Source of the DNA: Burkholderiales bacterium
GTDB lineage: Bacteria; Pseudomonadota; Gammaproteobacteria; Burkholderiales; Casimicrobiaceae
NCBI GenBank assembly: GCA_025354165.1
Contig: JANXNI010000049.1
Span: 62,001 to 126,000 of the forward strand
Direction: 5' to 3'
DNA length: 64,000 nt
The position numbers and the translations under genes were made by a program. The notes under the pieces are model-generated. The model did not search any database. It was not told the origin of the DNA and saw only the letters and a list, made by a program, of their open reading frames with translations. Within the stretch, counting starts at the first letter, position 1, and every line of letters starts with the position of its first letter. Shown one piece after another: positions 37,884-47,164 of the stretch.

Positions 37884-39884
37884 ATGTCAACACGTCGAAC
37901 TGAGCTGAACCGCGCGGTCTTCCTGACAAATGTAATTCTGCAATCGCTCGAGGACGAACGCGGGGCTCTGGCGACGCTAGACGCGGCGTTTTTTTCAACG
38001 CAGACAGCAGGCGACGCGGGCCAAGCTGCTGCCATCGCTGGCACGGCACTACTGATCATCGGATCAAGCTGGGCCGATCTTGCGCCTTGCCAGACTTGGA
38101 TTCCTCGCATCCGCAGCGCCACCTTGCCCGAAGAAGATGAGGTATCGCTTGCCCTCTTCCTTGCGGGCTGGTTGCAGCAACATAGCCTCGACCAGCGGAC
38201 GGAAGACAAGGCGCAGGCGCTCGATTTCTCGGCGCGGCTCAATCGGTTGTTGCGCACGAGCGCAGAGCGTTTGCCGCCCGACATCACCGTGCTGGCGAGT
38301 GAGCCTTTGTTCGACGTGCTGGCGCAGGCTGGCGAAACTGCCGCCTTCGAAGACATCGCCACGCTATGCGAACCGGCGCTCGCCTCAGCTGACAAGCGCA
38401 TCGCCAGCAAGCATCTTTTCTGGCGCGGCAATCACCGGCGAATACTCGACATGCCAGCCGATGCGCAGCGCTGCTTCGACCAGGCGCGAGCCTACGGCGA
38501 GCAGACGCAGTGGTACTGGATTCGTCTGCAACTGCTACGCGCCTCGCTGCGTCCCGCGATTGAAAGCCGCGACAGTACACGAATCGAAACGTTGCTTGAA
38601 GAAAACCGTCAATTGCTGCGTGCCGAGCGCCCGATGGATTGGGGCGATTACCATCACTTGCGCGGCTGGGATGCACTCTTGCGGCAGGATGGTCGCAGTG
38701 CGTTGTCACACTACCGGCAGTGCATCGAGAACTATCGCGCGGCGTCGCTACCCCCACACCAGCTAGGCGTGATGCTGGGCGGCGAAGCCTCCGCGCTTGT
38801 GTTGCTCGGCCGTGCAGACGAGGCAGCCACCCTCTTCGCCAGCGTGCCAACAATGGCCAATGATCGTGCCCACAAGGTGAAGCTCGCGAACGTCGCATTT
38901 GCTAGCGCTGTGTTTGCGCGACAGACGCAACAGCCGGATTATTTAGACCACTTGCGCACCGGATTTGCTGCGGCCGCGGCATTCGACCTCGTGCAGATTT
39001 TTCGTTCGCTACCGAAGCAGGTGGCCGAGCTTTGCGCCGACGCTTTGCAAAACGATATTGAGCCTGTGTTCGTGCGCAAGATGATCCTGGCTCGTCACTT
39101 GACCGCCCCAGCCGATGCGGGCGGCGCTTGGCCGTGGCCGCTAAAGGTGTATACGCTCGGCACGTTCAAACTGTCGATTCGTGGCGAGCCGCTGGAGTCC
39201 ACAGGCAAAGCGCAAAACAAGCCGCTTGAGCTCTTGCATCTGCTTGCGAGCAATGATGGTCAACCGCTGTCGGCGGCATCGGTAATAGATGCCTTGTGGC
39301 CAGATTCGGAGGGCGGCACCGGTCGAAAGGCGTTTGACACGACGCTGGCGCGGCTTAAAAAGCTGATCACTTCGGACGAGTGGATCGCAGTCGTTGGCGG
39401 CAAGCTTGTGCTCGACAGCACCCAAGTTTGGATCGACACGATGGAGCTTGCTCGAATCGCCATCCGCATTGACGCCCTAGCCTTGCCCGCGCTCGGCAAT
39501 GGCGAGCTGCAACGGCTGACCAACGGCGTTCTGCATCTGTATCGTGCGCCGTTCCTGGCGCAAGAGCCCGAGACCTCGTGGCTCCTGGAGGCGCGGCAGA
39601 GAAACAAGAACCGCTTCGTGCGCACCGTCGAACGACTGGGCAGCGAGTTCGAGCGTCGCGGCCTCACAGCCGATGCGATGCGCCTGTTCGAGCGAGGAAG
39701 CGAGATCGAACCGATTGCCGAATCGTTTTATCGTCGGCTCATGCTCGCCCATGAACAGCACGGCGACAAGGCCGAGGCGCTGCGTGTTTTTCGGCAATGT
39801 CGCGACATGCTCTCGCTGATCCTCGCCGTCGCACCCTCGCGCGAAACCCGCGCCATCGCCGAGCGCTTGCAGCTAGCGGAGTAG
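37884..39884 (+). CDS. SARP-like transcriptional regulator with C-terminal winged helix and BTAD
   Basis: A 666-residue regulator. The N-terminal ~400 residues are helical and TPR-like. Residues ~415-515 form an OmpR-type winged helix that begins LKVYTLGTFKLSIRGEPLES and contains ELLHLLASNDGQPLSAASVI and GRKAFDTTLARLKKLI. The bacterial transcriptional activator domain fills the C-terminus (LARIAIRIDALALPALGNGE onward to about 660). Classical SARPs carry this DNA-binding unit at the N-terminus; here it is C-terminal, and no ATPase motif is seen. The ATG at 37884 follows GAGTG; a GTG at 37866 would add six residues. Two downstream promoters carry SARP-style heptamer repeats. Confidence 0.85.
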   Translation: MSTRRTELNRAVFLTNVILQSLEDERGALATLDAAFFSTQTAGDAGQAAAIAGTALLIIGSSWADLAPCQTWIPRIRSATLPEEDEVSLALFLAGWLQQHSLDQRTEDKAQALDFSARLNRLLRTSAERLPPDITVLASEPLFDVLAQAGETAAFEDIATLCEPALASADKRIASKHLFWRGNHRRILDMPADAQRCFDQARAYGEQTQWYWIRLQLLRASLRPAIESRDSTRIETLLEENRQLLRAERPMDWGDYHHLRGWDALLRQDGRSALSHYRQCIENYRAASLPPHQLGVMLGGEASALVLLGRADEAATLFASVPTMANDRAHKVKLANVAFASAVFARQTQQPDYLDHLRTGFAAAAAFDLVQIFRSLPKQVAELCADALQNDIEPVFVRKMILARHLTAPADAGGAWPWPLKVYTLGTFKLSIRGEPLESTGKAQNKPLELLHLLASNDGQPLSAASVIDALWPDSEGGTGRKAFDTTLARLKKLITSDEWIAVVGGKLVLDSTQVWIDTMELARIAIRIDALALPALGNGELQRLTNGVLHLYRAPFLAQEPETSWLLEARQRNKNRFVRTVERLGSEFERRGLTADAMRLFERGSEIEPIAESFYRRLMLAHEQHGDKAEALRVFRQCRDMLSLILAVAPSRETRAIAERLQLAE

Positions 39885-40002
39885 TGCAGCAACGCAGTCG
39901 CGCGGTCATGAGCATGCGCTGATTGTGTCGTCTTCCCGTTAAGTCGCTTCGCCTTGAGCGAGGTGAACTGCTTTTTTTGTTGCGCGCCAAATATTTTCGG
40001 AT
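39885..40002. other. Gap after the SARP-like gene
   Basis: First part of a 329-bp gap between the SARP-like gene and the peptidoglycan-hydrolase gene. I see no gene here; the heptamer repeats and candidate promoter follow at 40003-40047. Confidence 0.4.
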
Positions 40003-40047
40003 CGTGGGAAATCTGTGGGATATCCGTGGGACGGCCGACTTTACGCT
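40003..40047 (+). promoter_or_regulatory. SARP-type operator and promoter of the peptidoglycan-hydrolase gene
   Basis: Three heptamers CGTGGGA (40003-40009), TGTGGGA (40014-40020) and CGTGGGA (40025-40031) are spaced exactly 11 bp apart with 4-bp spacers AATC and TATC. Ten bases later TACGCT (40042-40047) could be a -10 box. The same arrangement, with two heptamers, stands at 41278-41311. SARP activators recognise heptameric direct repeats at 11-bp period next to the -35 region; this is established for actinobacterial members and inferred here. Confidence 0.65.
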
Positions 40048-40213
40048 TCATTCATGCCCGATCCGGATGAAGGCGACCGGCGAAACGCTACTCAACCGAT
40101 TCAGGGCGTTTCACATGGCGGCATCGCAAAAAATGCCGTCCGGGATGACGGCACGTTCGATTGACACACAACGGACAGTGCAATAGCAAAACATAAATTT
40201 TCATGAGGCCAAC

Positions 40214-41146
40214 ATGCTTCCATTTCCACTTCGAACTCTGCGCATTGGCATGCGCGGCGCTGACGTCGCGCAGGCGCAGGCCATGCTCAATCTGATTGCA
40301 AAGACGCTGCTGCCGCTGCTCAATGCCGACGGCGCGTTCGGCCTGAAGACGCAACACCGTGTGCAGGAGTTTCAGCAAGTCGCGCGGGTGATGGTCGACG
40401 GCGTGATTGGGCCACAGACTTGGGCAACACTCGATCAGCTGGCAAACGGCATCGTCAAGATGGCCTTCCCGCCGCCGCCACGTTGGGAAGATGATCCGTT
40501 TCGTGCCGATGTCGTGCAATTTGCTATTGGCGAGGCCTATCCGATGTCCAAGGTGGGTGATGATCGCGATGCTCCGCCGGAACCAGAGCCGGACCCGCCG
40601 CTTGTGCTGCTCGGAAAAGGCCCTGTAGAACGGCCAACGCGCCTGCGTTACGGATGGCCGAGGCTGAAGCAATACTTTGACGAAACCGTCATCGGCGTCT
40701 GCGATCGCTGGTGGCGACAAACCGGTGACATTAGCGTTCACGGCGAGCCCAAGCAAATCATGTTTCTCGACGGCGTTCGTGGACACGACTGGCGTGTGCC
40801 GCAATCGGGGTTAGCTGGTGGCATGAACTGGTGCGGCATCTTCGCCACATGGTGCTGGATTCAGGCGGGCGTCATGACGCGCTGGCATGGCGGCGCACCG
40901 ACAGGCGCGAAGAAGCACGCGTTCACCCCGACATCGCCGCCAAAACCAGGCGACATCATCGTAATTAACAACGCGATATCCCACCATTGCGTGTTGTTGC
41001 CAGAAGACGTCGGGGATGCGTACTACCGTGTCGTGAGCGGCAATTCGCTGTACCAACAAAATAGGGTTGAACGAATCACGCGCAATTCAATTGGCGCGTA
41101 TTACAGCCTGAACGACCGGCGCAATGACGCAAGCATCAGCACTTGA
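40214..41146 (+). CDS. Predicted peptidoglycan hydrolase: PG_binding_1 plus CHAP/NlpC-like domain
   Basis: A 310-residue protein without a signal peptide. Residues ~8-75 are a peptidoglycan-binding type 1 domain (LRIGMRGADVAQAQAMLNLI, DGAFGLKTQHRVQEFQ, DGVIGPQTWATL). After a Pro/Glu linker (about 118-130) the C-terminal part has GGMNWCGIFATWCW with candidate nucleophile Cys207 and KPGDIIVINNAISHHC with candidate His257/258, in CHAP or NlpC/P60 order. The start has GAGG upstream. Absence of a signal suggests phage-like or contractile delivery, lysis, or a non-canonical export. It lies under the heptamer-repeat promoter, so SARP control is likely. Confidence 0.78.
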   Translation: MLPFPLRTLRIGMRGADVAQAQAMLNLIAKTLLPLLNADGAFGLKTQHRVQEFQQVARVMVDGVIGPQTWATLDQLANGIVKMAFPPPPRWEDDPFRADVVQFAIGEAYPMSKVGDDRDAPPEPEPDPPLVLLGKGPVERPTRLRYGWPRLKQYFDETVIGVCDRWWRQTGDISVHGEPKQIMFLDGVRGHDWRVPQSGLAGGMNWCGIFATWCWIQAGVMTRWHGGAPTGAKKHAFTPTSPPKPGDIIVINNAISHHCVLLPEDVGDAYYRVVSGNSLYQQNRVERITRNSIGAYYSLNDRRNDASIST

Positions 41147-41277
41147 GTCGACATTGCCCATCCGAAGCCGAACCGCCGCACCAGAGCGTGCGCCCAATGC
41201 AACCGATCCGCCGCAATTTATCCCGCGAGCGGTTTGGACACTGCAAATGATGCAGATGGCAACCATTTTCCCGAATC

Positions 41278-41311
41278 TGTGGGACATCTGTGGGATGCCG
41301 GGGCCTACGCT
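41278..41311 (+). promoter_or_regulatory. SARP-type operator and promoter of the delta-60 gene
   Basis: Two TGTGGGA heptamers (41278-41284, 41289-41295) at 11-bp period with the spacer CATC; TACGCT (41306-41311) follows after exactly 10 bp, as at 40042. Aligned with the first site, the match continues through TACGCTTC and then fades. The site is 78 bp before the delta-60 ATG. Confidence 0.65.
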
Positions 41312-41388: not shown

Positions 41389-42921
41389 ATGATTTCTTTG
41401 CTCCGCCCACTTGCACGCGCCGCCGCACTAATCTGCTTAGGTATCGCAATTCTGGCCCATGTCACGCAGGCGACTCCGGGGCAGCCGGGCACGCTCGACG
41501 CGACATGGGCATCAATGGGTCCGCTTGGCCCGGGTAAGCTAATCGGCCCGGTCGGTCCTGGGGCCGACACCGCCAACGCTTTGCTATTGCAACCCGACAA
41601 CAATATTGTCCTGGCGGGTCAGTGCTACAACGGCAGCACCTATGATTTTTGCGCGATGCGCTTCCTGCCAACGGGCGTCCCGGACACCAGCTTTGGCAGC
41701 ACCGGCAAAGTCACAACACCAATGGGTACGAGTAGCGGCTACGCGAACGCAGTGCTGCAGCAACCCGATGGCAAGATCCTGCTAGCAGGATCTTGCATCG
41801 GCACCAGCAACAGTGATTTTTGTATTGTGCGCTACATGCCCAATGGCGCGCTGGACGCGAGCTTTAACGGCAACGGCAAAGTAATTACTTCGGTCGGTGC
41901 GAGCACCGACAACGCCGCTGCCGCGCTGTTGCAACCCGACGGCAAAATTGTGCTTGCGGGCCAATGCGTTAATGGCGGCAACCTGGACTTTTGCGCAGTA
42001 CGCTACCTGCCCAGCGGCGTGCTGGACATGAGCTTTAACGGCACAGGTAAAGTCATTGCTGCGGTGGGCTTAAGCGACGACATTGCCACTACCGCTCTGT
42101 TGCAACCCGACGGCAAAATCGTGGTGGCTGGCTATTGCGTGAACGGTAGCAATTTTTTTGATTTTTGCGCCGCGCGCTACCTTGCCAACGGCTCGCTTGA
42201 TTCAAGCTTTAACGGCATCGGCACCATCATCACACCGGTGGGTACGAGTTTCGACTACGCCACTGCCGCGTTGCTGCAACACGACGGCAAGATAGTGGTG
42301 ACAGGCCGTTGCTTCAACAGCGTCAATGACGATTTCTGCGCTGTGCGCTACCTGAATACCGGCGCGCTGGACACAAGCTTTAACGGCACCGGAAAAGTCA
42401 TCACCCCGGTGGGCGCAGGCGACGATAGCGCCACAGCTGCGCTGCTGCAACCTGACGGTAAGCTCGTGCTGACAGGCTATTGCAACAACGGCAGCAACAC
42501 CGATTTTTGTGCGCTGCGCTACCTACCCACGGGCGCACTGGATGTGACCTTTAACGGCACCGGCAAAGTCACCACAGCAGTCGGCGACGGAAACGACAGC
42601 GCCTTTGCCGCGCTGCTGCAACCTGACGGTAAGCTCGTGCTGGCGGGCAGTTGCAATTACGTTAACGCCAGCCTCGCCGTTTTTTGTGCCGTGCGCTACG
42701 ACGGTGGGCCATTGGGGAACCAAAATTGCATGCCTGACCTTGACGGCGACGGTCGGTTCCTTGCTACTACGGATGCGCTTATCTATACGCGTGTTGCGCT
42801 AGGCATCACTGGTCCAGCCGTGATTAGCGGTGTCACATTTGCACCTAACGCCACGCGAAACACTTGGCCGCTAATACGTGATTACTTGATAACACAGTGC
42901 GGACTAACCCTTTTGCAGTAG
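41389..42921 (+). CDS. Secreted delta-60 repeat protein, probable seven-bladed propeller, dockerin-like C-terminus
   Basis: A 510-residue exported protein: signal peptide (1-29, MISLLRPLARAAALICLGIA), then seven repeats of about 58-60 residues with the core LLQPDGKIVLAG-C...DFCAVRYLP-G-LD-SFNGTGKV. Each repeat has a Cys pair 8-10 residues apart (for example QCYNGSTYDFC), suggesting one disulfide per blade. The C-terminus (about 445-510) is dockerin-like, with DLDGDG and TRVALGI and a closing W-x5-YL-x3-C. The ATG at 41389 has AAAGG upstream; the frame opens at 41290. Under the second heptamer promoter. Ligand unknown. Confidence 0.85.
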   Translation: MISLLRPLARAAALICLGIAILAHVTQATPGQPGTLDATWASMGPLGPGKLIGPVGPGADTANALLLQPDNNIVLAGQCYNGSTYDFCAMRFLPTGVPDTSFGSTGKVTTPMGTSSGYANAVLQQPDGKILLAGSCIGTSNSDFCIVRYMPNGALDASFNGNGKVITSVGASTDNAAAALLQPDGKIVLAGQCVNGGNLDFCAVRYLPSGVLDMSFNGTGKVIAAVGLSDDIATTALLQPDGKIVVAGYCVNGSNFFDFCAARYLANGSLDSSFNGIGTIITPVGTSFDYATAALLQHDGKIVVTGRCFNSVNDDFCAVRYLNTGALDTSFNGTGKVITPVGAGDDSATAALLQPDGKLVLTGYCNNGSNTDFCALRYLPTGALDVTFNGTGKVTTAVGDGNDSAFAALLQPDGKLVLAGSCNYVNASLAVFCAVRYDGGPLGNQNCMPDLDGDGRFLATTDALIYTRVALGITGPAVISGVTFAPNATRNTWPLIRDYLITQCGLTLLQ

Positions 42922-43107: not shown

Positions 43108-45624
43108 CTACGGCAGCAGCATCGCGCAGGCACCGTTGAGATAAGCCTTCACATCGCTCCAGCTTTGCCGCGGCGCGCCTGCGGCTGTGGCGTTGGCGGT
43201 CACTGCGTCGCCGGTCAGCCCGAGCGCAACGCGCAGTAACATCAGGCCGTCGGTCGCTGGCAGTACGAGCCCGTCGCCATCAAAATCAAGCGCGATCACG
43301 CCGCTCACCGGCTGCCGTTGTGCATCGATAAACGAGGCGATGTTTGCGCCCGTCGTGCGCGTGGCGCAGGCACGAAAGCTGGTATTTGCAGTGATCGCCA
43401 CATCGCTAAATCCGAGCAATCGCCGCACAAGCATTTGCGCGTCGCTCACATCAAACACGCCGTCGCCGTCGGAGTCCACGTTGCATGTCGCGCCGGGTAT
43501 GTATGTTCCGCAGCCATACAAATGCACGGTGTAAGTGCCCGTGGCGTCGGCGCTGCTGCCCCAGGTGGTCACGTCGATGTAGTGCGTGCCGGAGGTGGTG
43601 AGCTGAAACTGCTGGATGCGTGAATCGCGAATTTTCCCGGAGACAATATCGTCGTTTTCAGCCAATATTTCGCGGTTTGGCCCCAGCAGATAGATGTACG
43701 GATCAAGCACAGGCGGCGGGGCCGTCGTGCTGTTGACGTCAATTGAAATGACGTCGCCCGCCGTCGCACTAAAGCTGTAGCGAACCGTATTGAATTCTGG
43801 TCCGCGCACCCCGCCTCGGCAATAGGTTCCCAGCGGCGCCGACGATGCAAGCGTGCCAGACAGCGTTTGCCCCATTGCGATGGGCGTGACCGCCGCGCAA
43901 TCGACCTCGGTGATACGCACTGAAACCGCGTTCGGGGCGACCACCTGCGTTGCACCAGAAGGAGCGCTCAAGCGCAGAGAAAACGCGCGCGCGCCTTGCT
44001 CTCCCGAACGATAAATAATCGGTACAGTCACCGTGCGATCCGTCGCGTCGTTCGCCGCCCAATTGAGCGTTGCCGGCGAAGGTGACGAAAAATCAATGCC
44101 CGCCTGCGCCGTGCCATTGTCGGCAACGACGCCAACGCTAACGGACTGCGCAAGCCCACCGATACGGCTAACGGTAAAGCTCACCGTGCCGTCGTTCTCG
44201 CGTAGCGTTGCCGACTGTTCGTTCCAGCCGATACGAGCGGCGGGCCCGGTGACCCCAGTGATCGAATTCCCCACGTCTAGCAATCCGGCACCGCAAATCG
44301 CCGTGGTGCAAGTGCTGCCACTGGGGAACGCTCGCGCGCCCGCCCGCAAGGCCAGATGCGTCTGATTGACGGTGAGCGTCGGTACCACCGCTTGTAACAG
44401 CGCCGCAGCCGCAACGACGTGTGGCGTCGCCATCGACGTGCCGCTCTTTAGGCATGATCCGCTGACGGGCCCACCGGTTGAGAGGATGTCGACACCGGGC
44501 GCGGTAATCGCAACGCCAGTACCGATATTGCTAAACGCAGCGAGCCCGCCGTTGATGTCCGACGCCGCAACGGCGAATGCCCCTCGACAGTTTGCAGGAG
44601 CGAACGAACTGACGTCAGCTCCATATGAATTGCCCGCGGCCACGACCGGCAGGATGCCTTTGCCTCGCAACGTATCAAAGGCATCCTGATATGCACCGCC
44701 ACACGCGCCCGAACCACCAAAGCTCATGTTGATCATGCGCACCTGATTCGGATTAACCGCAACGCCGACGATAGTTTCCCCACCTAGCCAAAGCATCGCG
44801 TCAATCGCGTCAGCATCCGTGCCGTCGCGCAGACCCAACGCCCGCGCCATAAGAATTTTTGACGATGACGCGCCGCCCGCAACTCCGACACCCGGCCCAT
44901 CCGCACCAAACGACGTTGCGGCGGCAATGGTGCCCGACACATGCGTCCCATGTCCACAGCTTGCATTGGCATCAGTCGGATCATTGTCGCGACCATCACC
45001 GTCGCCGGAACTCACGGAATCGCTGACGAAATCGTAACCACCCAGCGGAAACGCCGGATCAACGCGCAACTGCGACGCCAGGTCTTCCTGACCAAGCGCG
45101 ATACCGGTGTCAACTATGCCAATCGTTTGCGCTGCGTCGCCGGTGGTGATATCCCACGCCCCCACAAAATTGGCGCCCTCGACGGTGCCGGGCGAATACT
45201 TGAAGCCCCATTGACCCACATTGGAAAAAAGCGGATCGTTCGGAACCTTTTGCGTGCGGATGATGCGATTGGGCGCAGCATAGCGAACACCAGCGGTACG
45301 CGACACCGCGGTGGCCATCGCAGTGGCATCCGCCAGCGACATCGAACGATCCAGCGTGAGCAACTCCGCACCGCTCGCCAGCGTTCGCGAATAACTCAGA
45401 GCGACACCGAACCGCGACGCGGCAGCGTTAGCCGTAGCCACGTGCGCTTGTCGTGCAGCGACCAGAGACATCTCGTCAATCTTTGCAGGCTCAAACCTGA
45501 TGATCAGTGACGACACCGGGTCAGTGTTCGCGCCGAGTTTCGCCACGTCAACGGGTGGCTCTGCGATCGCTGGAAAAACAACACTAAACACTAGCGCGGC
45601 GATAGCTGCCGATACAAACTTCAT
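43108..45624 (-). CDS. Secreted S8 (subtilisin-like) serine protease with PPC and dockerin-like domains
   Basis: An 838-residue protease: signal peptide (1-21), inhibitor I9-like propeptide (about 35-125), S8 catalytic domain (about 130-480) with Asp172 (GIVDTGI), His225 (CGHGTHVSG) and Ser397 (SGTSMATPH), plus the oxyanion Asn332. A Calx-beta-like domain (about 490-600), a pre-peptidase C-terminal domain (about 605-725) and two dockerin-like modules (VDSDGDGVFDVSDAQMLVRR, then DFDGDGLVLPATDGLMLLRV) follow. ATG at 45624 after AGGGAAAA. It is 14 bp after the metzincin gene, so the two proteases form an operon. Confidence 0.93.
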   Translation of the reverse strand: MKFVSAAIAALVFSVVFPAIAEPPVDVAKLGANTDPVSSLIIRFEPAKIDEMSLVAARQAHVATANAAASRFGVALSYSRTLASGAELLTLDRSMSLADATAMATAVSRTAGVRYAAPNRIIRTQKVPNDPLFSNVGQWGFKYSPGTVEGANFVGAWDITTGDAAQTIGIVDTGIALGQEDLASQLRVDPAFPLGGYDFVSDSVSSGDGDGRDNDPTDANASCGHGTHVSGTIAAATSFGADGPGVGVAGGASSSKILMARALGLRDGTDADAIDAMLWLGGETIVGVAVNPNQVRMINMSFGGSGACGGAYQDAFDTLRGKGILPVVAAGNSYGADVSSFAPANCRGAFAVAASDINGGLAAFSNIGTGVAITAPGVDILSTGGPVSGSCLKSGTSMATPHVVAAAALLQAVVPTLTVNQTHLALRAGARAFPSGSTCTTAICGAGLLDVGNSITGVTGPAARIGWNEQSATLRENDGTVSFTVSRIGGLAQSVSVGVVADNGTAQAGIDFSSPSPATLNWAANDATDRTVTVPIIYRSGEQGARAFSLRLSAPSGATQVVAPNAVSVRITEVDCAAVTPIAMGQTLSGTLASSAPLGTYCRGGVRGPEFNTVRYSFSATAGDVISIDVNSTTAPPPVLDPYIYLLGPNREILAENDDIVSGKIRDSRIQQFQLTTSGTHYIDVTTWGSSADATGTYTVHLYGCGTYIPGATCNVDSDGDGVFDVSDAQMLVRRLLGFSDVAITANTSFRACATRTTGANIASFIDAQRQPVSGVIALDFDGDGLVLPATDGLMLLRVALGLTGDAVTANATAAGAPRQSWSDVKAYLNGACAMLLP

Positions 45625-45638
45625 TAAAAAATTTTTCC

Positions 45639-46994
45639 CTAGAAAGTGCTGCCGCAGGTCGTGTTTAGCCAGCTTTGAATCGCCGACCAAGTGGTGTTGG
45701 TCGAACCCGGCTCGTTGGCAAGACCCAGTCCTCCGTTGACCGAAGCATCGGACTTGGCGCCGTTCATCACGCGGACGATCACCGCTCCGTCAGTCGCCGC
45801 GCGGGTCGCAGCGCCACCCGTGACGCTGTAATTGCTGGAGGTCGCACTAAAAATTGCCGCGCTGGTGGTGTTAGCGGCACACGTTCCCGCGAGCCCGCCA
45901 AACGCAGTGGCGTCAAAACCCAGCATCCGACGAACGATAGCAGCGCCGTCGGTCGCAGCTTCGATCAGGCCGTTATTGTCGACGTCGAGATTGCAGCTCG
46001 GAATGCCCGAAAGCGCCGTGACATTTCTGGTGACGTTCGTGGTTACCGCAGTAAACGTTTGCGGGGGAATTCGATTGTTGGCGACACTCGGCGAATGTAG
46101 AGTTCCGGCCCATCCGTTCGGCACGGTGCAGCTATAAGCGCCGCTGCTGACGGACGCCGTGCAGCTAACGCCAGCAGAAGGGCGAGCGCAGAACGTTACA
46201 CCTGCGATACCGCCACCGTTGGTGATACTGCCGTTAATCGTACGTGCCGTAGAGACCGGCGGACCGTATAGATTTTGACAGCCGGCGATATCGTCAGCGG
46301 TAAGCGTGCTGAGTGATACATAACTCGTCAGCGGTGGACCGGACATCACGGCATTCTGGACGTCAGAATGATTAAGGCCGATCATGTGACCCACCTCATG
46401 CACCAGCGTGACATCAAGGTTAGGGTTGAAAGCGTAGTTAATGGCCATGTCGCCCTCGTTAATCGTATACGGGCCACCGGATGGGCCGCTAGCGCTAACG
46501 TAGGTAATACCCGTTGTATTCCCTGACAGAGACCCGCCCGTCCCCCAAGCGATGACATTTAGAAAATCGCGGGGTCCGCCGCCGGTAAAGTTCGTTCCGG
46601 AGAGGCTAGGACCAGAGGCGGTTGCGCCGTCGTAGACAAACTGAATGTTGCACACCGCCGACCATTTGCTCATTGCAGCTTGAATGCTAGCCACGGCTGC
46701 AGCGGGGGTCGCAGAAATTCCGGAAGGGCGATTGGCATCGTTGTACAGCCAATGAATCACCTTGGGCGACCACCCGAGCCAGCCGAATGTAACGAATTTA
46801 GATTCGTCACCTGATGGACTCAAGAATCGAATAAAAAAATCATTTGTGCGAGATGTCGACACGTCGATTTCGGTTGCGCTCAACGCCTGTCGAGCCTCGC
46901 TCGCATCGAGCGCGGCGGCATAAGTCGAAAGGCTCGTGCCAGCGATCAACGCAATACAAAAAATCGTCCTCAATAGCGGATAAAACACACGCAT
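45639..46994 (-). CDS. Secreted matrixin-like zinc metalloprotease with dockerin-like C-terminus
   Basis: A 451-residue metzincin. The signal peptide ends near TYAAA. The zinc site is His199-Glu200-x2-His203-x5-His209 (HEVGHMIGLNHSD), with the Met-turn Met217 (NAVMSGP). Residues ~230-320 look like an Ig-like repeat region (SITNGGGIAGVTFCARPSAG). Two dockerin-like modules end it: DVDNNGLIEAATDGAAIVRR is intact, while the second has lost its acidic loop (SVTGGAATRAATDGAVIVRV) but keeps the helix and the W...C tail. The ATG at 46994 gives the signal peptide; the frame is open to 47120. It leads the two-protease operon. Confidence 0.9.
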   Translation of the reverse strand: MRVFYPLLRTIFCIALIAGTSLSTYAAALDASEARQALSATEIDVSTSRTNDFFIRFLSPSGDESKFVTFGWLGWSPKVIHWLYNDANRPSGISATPAAAVASIQAAMSKWSAVCNIQFVYDGATASGPSLSGTNFTGGGPRDFLNVIAWGTGGSLSGNTTGITYVSASGPSGGPYTINEGDMAINYAFNPNLDVTLVHEVGHMIGLNHSDVQNAVMSGPPLTSYVSLSTLTADDIAGCQNLYGPPVSTARTINGSITNGGGIAGVTFCARPSAGVSCTASVSSGAYSCTVPNGWAGTLHSPSVANNRIPPQTFTAVTTNVTRNVTALSGIPSCNLDVDNNGLIEAATDGAAIVRRMLGFDATAFGGLAGTCAANTTSAAIFSATSSNYSVTGGAATRAATDGAVIVRVMNGAKSDASVNGGLGLANEPGSTNTTWSAIQSWLNTTCGSTF

Positions 46995-47164
46995 GTGGAT
47001 AAGTGCCTTACTGTTTTTGGTAATCCCCGTGCTGTCAAACACTGTTCGTACCCGCGCATTTGGGTGCTCGACCATCGGATGAATTGTATTTGCATCGATC
47101 TCAAACAGATCCTGCAACATGCCTAGCGGATAAACTGCCTGTACAGCCGTTTTGAACCGATACC

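Follow-up and report, generated by a model that had tools for sequence, protein, structure and literature searches.

Within a window of 64,000 nucleotides from a Burkholderiales bacterium (Casimicrobiaceae; contig JANXNI010000049.1), two genes that follow a putative regulator of SARP type are each preceded by short direct repeats with a period of 11 bp. The question that this locus raises is whether these repeats are operators, whether the neighbouring protein reads them, and how far such an arrangement extends beyond the locus. We conclude with high confidence that the neighbour is an activator with a C-terminal SARP domain, binding the repeats at both promoters and controlling a local regulon of two promoters. 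The conclusion is built on the repeats, their phasing and uniqueness, their spacing to a -10-like element, the SARP domain, the layout found behind related regulators and the association of helix with operator; from these, by analogy with AfsR, we infer binding, activation rather than repression, and contacts with RNA polymerase.

Phased repeats and the genes behind them

The features of the locus are as follows.

37884..39884, + strand: regulator gene (P0001, 666 aa), with a weak N-terminal TPR match and a C-terminal SARP domain (winged helix plus BTAD)
39318..39365, + strand: predicted recognition helix, holding KAFDTTLARLKKLI, from the structure model and alignments
39528..39869, + strand: BTAD domain (Pfam PF03704, residues 549-662, E 5.2e-16)
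39944..39966, + strand: terminator-like hairpin followed by a T run, in the gap between regulator and operator 1, which would separate transcription units
40003..40031, + strand: putative operator 1, a triple repeat phased at 11 bp, its final two ATCYGTGGG units beginning at 40011 and 40022
40042..40047, + strand: -10-like hexamer TACGCT of site 1, beginning 20 nt past the first base of the last unit
40214..41146, + strand: target gene 1, with a peptidoglycan-binding domain and a CHAP-like domain (CHAP below Pfam's cut-off)
41278..41295, + strand: putative operator 2, two 11-bp-phased repeats, with ATC units starting at 41275 and 41286
41306..41311, + strand: -10-like hexamer TACGCT of site 2, likewise 20 nt past the first base of the last unit
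41389..42921, + strand: target gene 2, a delta-60/DUF5122 repeat (beta-propeller) protein (TIGR02608, E 1.8e-93; DUF5122)

All of the positions given in an earlier note on this DNA were confirmed: CGTGGGA at 40003 and 40025, TGTGGGA at 40014, 41278 and 41289, and TACGCT at 40042 and 41306, in each case exactly 10 bp past the last heptamer. Both sites are intergenic, and each lies before a gene on the same strand. The pattern YGTGGGA-N4-YGTGGGA occurs three times in the window (two overlapping matches at site 1 and one at site 2) and not once in 100 shuffles of it, while single YGTGGGA heptamers number 11 on the + strand, five of them being those of the two sites, and three on the - strand. A three-copy family with at least 19/21 identities was found once in the window, at period 11 on the + strand, and at none of eight other periods tested on that strand alone; its count on the other strand is the same place once more, since a direct repeat reads as such on either strand.

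Across the whole genome (4.72 Mb in 97 contigs) the exact pattern has three forward matches and no reverse match, and its reversed-letter control has none. The exact pattern thus stands only at the two intergenic sites. With up to two mismatches there are 59 matches against 49 in the reversed-letter control, which is noise, and [TC]ANNNT is at the expected place in none of 27 mismatch loci (L004-L030, 27 of the 56 other matches, turned to their own strand); a wider regulon in this genome therefore cannot be claimed, and by the exact pattern it comprises only the two promoters of the window. That the repeats arose by chance, or as a copied segment without function, is very improbable. Both copies do lie in one locus and share TACGCTTC on the 3' side of the repeats, but the pattern is unique in 4.72 Mb and absent from the shuffles, the stretches that separate the repeats from TACGCT differ between the two sites, and other regulators are followed by the same layout, there ahead of unrelated genes.

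The earlier note had proposed two adjacent target genes. Both do stand on the same strand behind repeats, although the start of the second had to be moved to a likely ATG at 41389; the longer frame, from a GTG at 41290, would start within the repeat. Export is probable for the product of the second gene, for which a signal peptide was judged by eye, but the first lacks a trusted signal peptide; from its domains, target gene 1 likely encodes a cell-wall hydrolase. A paralogue of it in the same genome (contig 60, 49% identical) lacks such an operator within 1.5 kb of upstream sequence, and an orthologue in another genome (G006, 51%) begins at a contig end. The hairpin at 39944..39966 is weak, because seven such sites are found in the stretch and 7.5 are expected by chance. 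A further hairpin, at 40133-40154 in the presumed 5' leader of target gene 1, is terminator-like on the minus strand.

Further along, three neighbouring genes, encoding the DUF5122 protein (its end at 42700-42918, +), a subtilase (43108-45690, -) and a matrixin (45639-47120, -), end alike. Dockerin was named in no scan of the three proteins, and the segment of the DUF5122 protein has no Pfam match; by eye, their C-terminal D-x-D-G-like segments resemble dockerin.

The SARP domain of the regulator

The assignment of a SARP-type winged helix and BTAD to 37884-39884 is upheld by Pfam, by a sequence match to AfsR and by the predicted fold, which agree. The winged helix (Trans_reg_C) is matched by Pfam at E 2e-4, below Pfam's own cut-off. 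Against solved structures, a seven-domain profile matches AfsR (8hvr) over positions 21-265 with E 1.3e-15 and EmbR with 1.2e-10, and P0001 alone matches AfsR (8hvr) over residues 423-662 with E 6.1e-6; designed TPR proteins were also matched in these structure-sequence searches, through the TPR-like BTAD part. Structure prediction of the SARP domain from a 20-row alignment (pLDDT 94.4) gave a fold for which all six matches with E <= 0.001 are AfsR and EmbR chains (TM 0.60-0.66), among them AfsR 8k60 with E 6.9e-12 and TM 0.64. The window protein thus has the succession of OmpR-type winged helix and BTAD that marks the SARP family.

AfsR of Streptomyces coelicolor, a host from a different phylum, has been solved on the afsS promoter (PDB 8hvr, 8jke, 8k60) and likewise combines an OmpR-type winged helix with BTAD. 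It also has TPR and a STAND-type ATPase, as do long relatives of the window regulator, whereas in the window protein nothing matches the STAND ATPase domain, a feature of the MalT family. EmbR of Mycobacterium tuberculosis (2fez, 2ff4) shares the winged helix and BTAD fold. The order of domains differs: according to passages of PMC10936776 and PMC3367932 the SARP domain is N-terminal in AfsR and PimR, and in EmbR an N-terminal SARP part is followed by a C-terminal FHA domain (PMC10936776), whereas the window protein and all six relatives scanned have it at the C terminus.

The residues by which AfsR contacts DNA are Q48, W74, P79, T88, R92, R94 and K95 (passages of PMC10936776). At these seven places the window protein has Q, W, G, T, R, K and K in a pairwise alignment, so that five are identical; Asp485 aligns with AfsR R87 and Arg490 with R92 (AfsR numbering as in the passages of PMC10936776). 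Two of the seven differ, which speaks against our reading, and at one of the two Lys stands in place of the Arg that 129 of 131 relatives share. Among those relatives (an alignment of 131 rows, one row below the E-value limit having been left out) the R92 place is Arg in 130 and the R94 place Arg in 129.

Known SARP operators offer a second comparison. In the passages of PMC3367932, PimR, SanG and PolR have two or three heptamers with 4-bp spacers, as in the window (three in the case of PimR), but their heptamer, CGGCAAG, is actinobacterial and differs from that described here. The PimR box stands beside its own gene, as the window's does, and PimR has a single target; unlike the window's, it does not overlap the -35 region (same passages). 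In the open-licence literature, to which the search was confined, subscription papers being outside its scope, no paper dealing with SARP operators of Burkholderiales was found. Domain, repeats and mode of action are already known from actinobacteria; within that literature, what is new is a C-terminal proteobacterial family with MalT-like long members, a common operator and a fixed -10, together with the association between helix and operator. Among proteobacteria, the HilA box of Salmonella is made up of hexamers repeated at 11-bp intervals close to the -35 place.

Putative operators behind homologous regulators

A relative of the regulator was found in 77 of 399 genomes of the order, with up to 24 profile matches in a single genome (G189). 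The sample comprised 100 stretches around the best regulator matches and 20 around motif sites (19 new loci); regulator rows left unfetched were those with stop codons (e.g. G283:C22:78578, G283:C40), partial or distant rows, some at contig ends and a few others. Exact 7-mer repeats were counted, free of any motif, within 400 bp downstream of 111 regulator ORFs; the rest of the original 114 had been dropped as duplicates or for having less than 200 bp downstream. Period 11 gave 45 pairs in 18 loci, against five pairs in three loci of the coding control; period 10 gave 12 pairs in nine loci, period 13 one pair in one, and period 12 gave 23 in 13, similar to its coding control (22 in nine). Many of the period-11 repeats have a common core, ATCYGTRR, of which ATCYGTGGG in the window is a variant.

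From the discovery set a score was built of two ATCYGTRR units 11 bp apart and a -10 hexamer. Scores of at least 20 occur behind 46 of 132 discovery regulators (the number after removal of duplicates and short downstream ends) and behind one of 132 in each of the reversed, reverse-complement and coding controls. Among named records, a Methylococcaceae MAG (L246, score 22) and Cognatazoarcus halotolerans (L251, score 19) have a site of this kind. Fifty-five further loci were held out, of which 54 were scored unchanged, L259 being a duplicate; these loci are new but their lineages are not, since they come from the genomes already used for discovery. Here scores of at least 20 occur behind 10 of 54 regulators (controls 0, 0 and 0) and of at least 19 behind 20 of 54 (controls 2, 0 and 0). 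Only one held-out locus reaches 22, so the held-out sites are weaker than those of the discovery set. Counting against our reading are the 86 of 132 discovery regulators below 20 and the 34 of 54 held-out regulators below 19, whose sites may be diverged, elsewhere or absent.

Two exact ATCYGTRR cores 11 bp apart occur at 31 sites in 24 of the 399 genomes, and their reversed-letter control matches 15 times in eight; as this is only about a twofold excess, it is position and not number that carries the signal. The regulator is present in 18 of the 24 genomes with the exact pair, compared with 59 of the 375 without (Fisher p 1e-9), and in none of the eight genomes with control matches when the lists were compared. 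By profile, the six pair-bearing genomes that at first appeared to lack it resolved into three with none, two marginal cases and one clear one (G042). Ten of the 31 sites lie 11-129 bp behind a regulator stop codon, on the strand of the regulator, four just before a regulator start codon and two near a regulator in another arrangement (L162, L223); one is the second site of the window, and for the other 14 the fetched stretch contains no regulator.

In six loci of this last kind (L220, L221, L224, L225, L229 and L232) TANNNT stands at offset 20 from the last unit, and these are possible targets in trans. In four loci (L149, L151, L156 and L228) the operator is directly 5' of another regulator gene of the same family, with the start codon 29-32 nt past the place of the offset-20 hexamer; regulator cascades or self-activation are possible there.

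The direct-repeat operator with an 11-bp period, a feature of the SARP family, is thus found both in the window and family-wide, and the reading of the repeats as operators gains comparative support from a phased repeat and fixed -10 that stand behind many homologous regulators, those held out included. The proposal in the earlier note of a SARP regulon outside actinobacteria is supported to the same extent, although in this genome the exact pattern limits that regulon to two promoters. Boxes of the OmpR/PhoB type are also 11-bp direct repeats, and another winged-helix regulator, either of this type or a SARP paralogue encoded elsewhere, might bind the repeats in place of the product of the neighbouring gene. 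Four more homologues are encoded in the same genome, and the 14 exact sites with no regulator in the fetched stretch also point this way, but the same layout directly behind many homologous regulators, the manner in which repeat bases track the recognition helix of the adjacent regulator, and the different repeats behind two of the paralogues in the same genome (L106, L107) make it an improbable alternative to control by the neighbour.

The -10-like hexamer is fixed in its spacing. When 32 sites (the 31 exact ones and one in L121) were aligned on the last unit, TANNNT was found at offset 20 in 15 and at any other offset from 11 to 39 in two at most. When sites behind regulators were picked by their repeats alone, [TC]ANNNT stood at offset 20 in 33 of 58 in the discovery set and 13 of 18 in the held-out set; second in the discovery set comes offset 31, one repeat further, with seven of 58, and among the held-out sites no other offset exceeds one of 18. 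Judged by sequence and offset, the TACGCT of the window is this putative -10 element.

The geometry can be laid over that of AfsR, whose box comprises two 11-bp repeats at -40 to -30 and -29 to -19, makes specific contacts at T-38 and the base pair at -36, and is no longer bound after a change to A at -27 (passages of PMC10936776). As in the window, the two repeats overlap the -35 place (same passages). The AfsR box is centred at -29.5, and so is the window box if its -10 spans -12 to -7, a placement which is an assumption and is not stated for the afsS -10 in the passages of PMC10936776. Given this placement, the YGTRR of the window unit would occupy -29 to -25 with its T on -27, the place at which AfsR is sensitive to mutation, and in the upstream repeat the C and T of YGT would fall on C-40 and T-38 of the AfsR box (same passages). 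The afsS -10, CACTGT, is of the CANNNT type found in this family (same passages). For SARPs the 3' repeat is given as lying 8 bp from the -10 (passages of PMC10936776), against 10 bp measured from the window heptamer, a distance that varies with the choice of the end of the repeat.

The neighbour, once bound to the repeats, might instead repress or block transcription: operator and promoter overlap, and sequence alone leaves the sign unfixed. No sigma-70-like promoter with a consensus -35 was found on the + strand between 37500 and 43200, however, and the fixed -10 spacing and the agreement with the AfsR activation complex favour activation, so that we regard repression as unlikely, a little more so than binding by another regulator. 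In the activator reading that we prefer, two copies of the regulator would bind side by side on adjacent 11-bp repeats (YGTGGGA-N4), and the bound repeats would replace a -35 box. The SARP domains would contact RNA polymerase and sigma as AfsR does, holding the polymerase on a weak -10, and the two promoters with the -10 TACGCT would be opened, switching on the cell-wall hydrolase-like gene and that of the probably exported DUF5122 protein. The N-terminal part perhaps senses a partner or a state.

The recognition helix and the wider family

Recognition helix and operator were compared across 45 regulators less than 55% identical. Regulators with similar helices tend to have similar operators (Mantel r 0.24, 0 of 2000 permutations), and similarity of the domain overall is barely predictive (rho 0.06, p 0.07). 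The strongest of 99 residue-base pairs scanned joins position 87 (AfsR numbering) to base 8 of the repeat (0 of 200 shuffles), a base that lies outside the operator score. In 44 representatives, G is at base 8 in 22 of 26 units with Asp87 and all 10 with Glu87, and C in all eight with Lys87 and six of eight with Arg87. Counted by regulator, base 8 is G in the majority for 18 of 19 discovery regulators with an acidic residue and none of eight with a basic one, and for four of four and none of five in the held-out set (score at least 18); both sets contain near-identical rows, such as L254 and L297, and L273 has the operator of L149. With Ala87, 13 of 14 discovery units have C or T, and the 16 held-out units are mixed (seven C, seven G, one T, one A). 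The window, with Asp and G, fits the association.

In AfsR, R87 is reported to contact the backbone near this place and not a base (passages of PMC10936776). On a tree that is itself poorly supported the class of residue 87 changes seven times, with only one independent pair on supported branches, and therefore no significance can be claimed for the rule, which, as read from these sequences, is an association. A fragment with no real helix (L173_2) was left out of the representatives and the tree, and L291 also out of the tree. Asn88 goes with CT in place of GT in the core in five of nine such regulators (L106, L133, L097, L240 and L251), the other four having no convincing site. A rule for position 91, His with GTA and other residues with GTG, was rejected as weak (G in 3 of 24 with His against 9 of 21 others, p 0.04) and has no support on the tree.

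Some relatives are considerably longer than the window protein. An N-terminal match to a STAND-type ATPase (AAA_16, mostly below Pfam's cut-off) was found in five of six relatives scanned, with lengths of 1,061-1,099 aa in four and 1,114 aa in the fifth; the sixth, L086 (742 aa), the one relative scanned among those with frames of about 580-790 aa, has none. Residues 30-431 of L142, the one long relative tested with NCBIfam, match MalT (NF003420) with E 3.7e-39 and 134.5 bits, below the NCBI cut-off of 537. MalT is a STAND ATPase-TPR activator which resembles L142 in its N-terminal part; its output domain is a LuxR-type helix-turn-helix, and that of L142 a SARP domain (winged helix plus BTAD). 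By these matches, the C-terminal SARP domain of some long relatives would be coupled to an ATPase-TPR sensor resembling that of MalT.

The window regulator is best read as a local activator and member of a paralogous family. We lean, somewhat beyond even odds, towards a general reading in which Burkholderiales and some neighbours hold a large paralogous family of C-terminal SARP regulators with their own downstream 11-bp operators, an adjacent and often exported target, and a code that is partly readable (acidic 87 with G and basic 87 with C at base 8; Asn88 with CT for GT). If so, these regulators would form a naturally occurring collection of switches orthogonal to one another, and SARP activation, actinobacterial in the passages of PMC10936776 and PMC3367932, would extend to a proteobacterial family of reversed domain order, with some long members joined to a MalT-like sensor. 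Since many relatives have repeats of their own behind them, such self-contained gene switches may form a large set that has been little described. Because many of these uncharacterised regulators adjoin a presumed operator, the DNA that they read would be predictable from the genome, their targets could be named and a code of protein-DNA recognition could be directly tested.

Targets across the family were taken as the longest nearby frame behind 51 sites with a score of at least 19, some of which are wrong frames. By a crude test, 26 of the 51 have a signal-peptide-like stretch, a count that includes target gene 1 of the window, where it is not trusted. Pfam families among 41 targets, two of them the window's, include alpha/beta hydrolases, periplasmic binding proteins, RTX, CsgG, amidase, ECF-type sigma factors and DUF5122 among the 25 commonest of 46 families, and from this variety it would seem that the regulators control neighbours of many kinds, a good number of which are exported.
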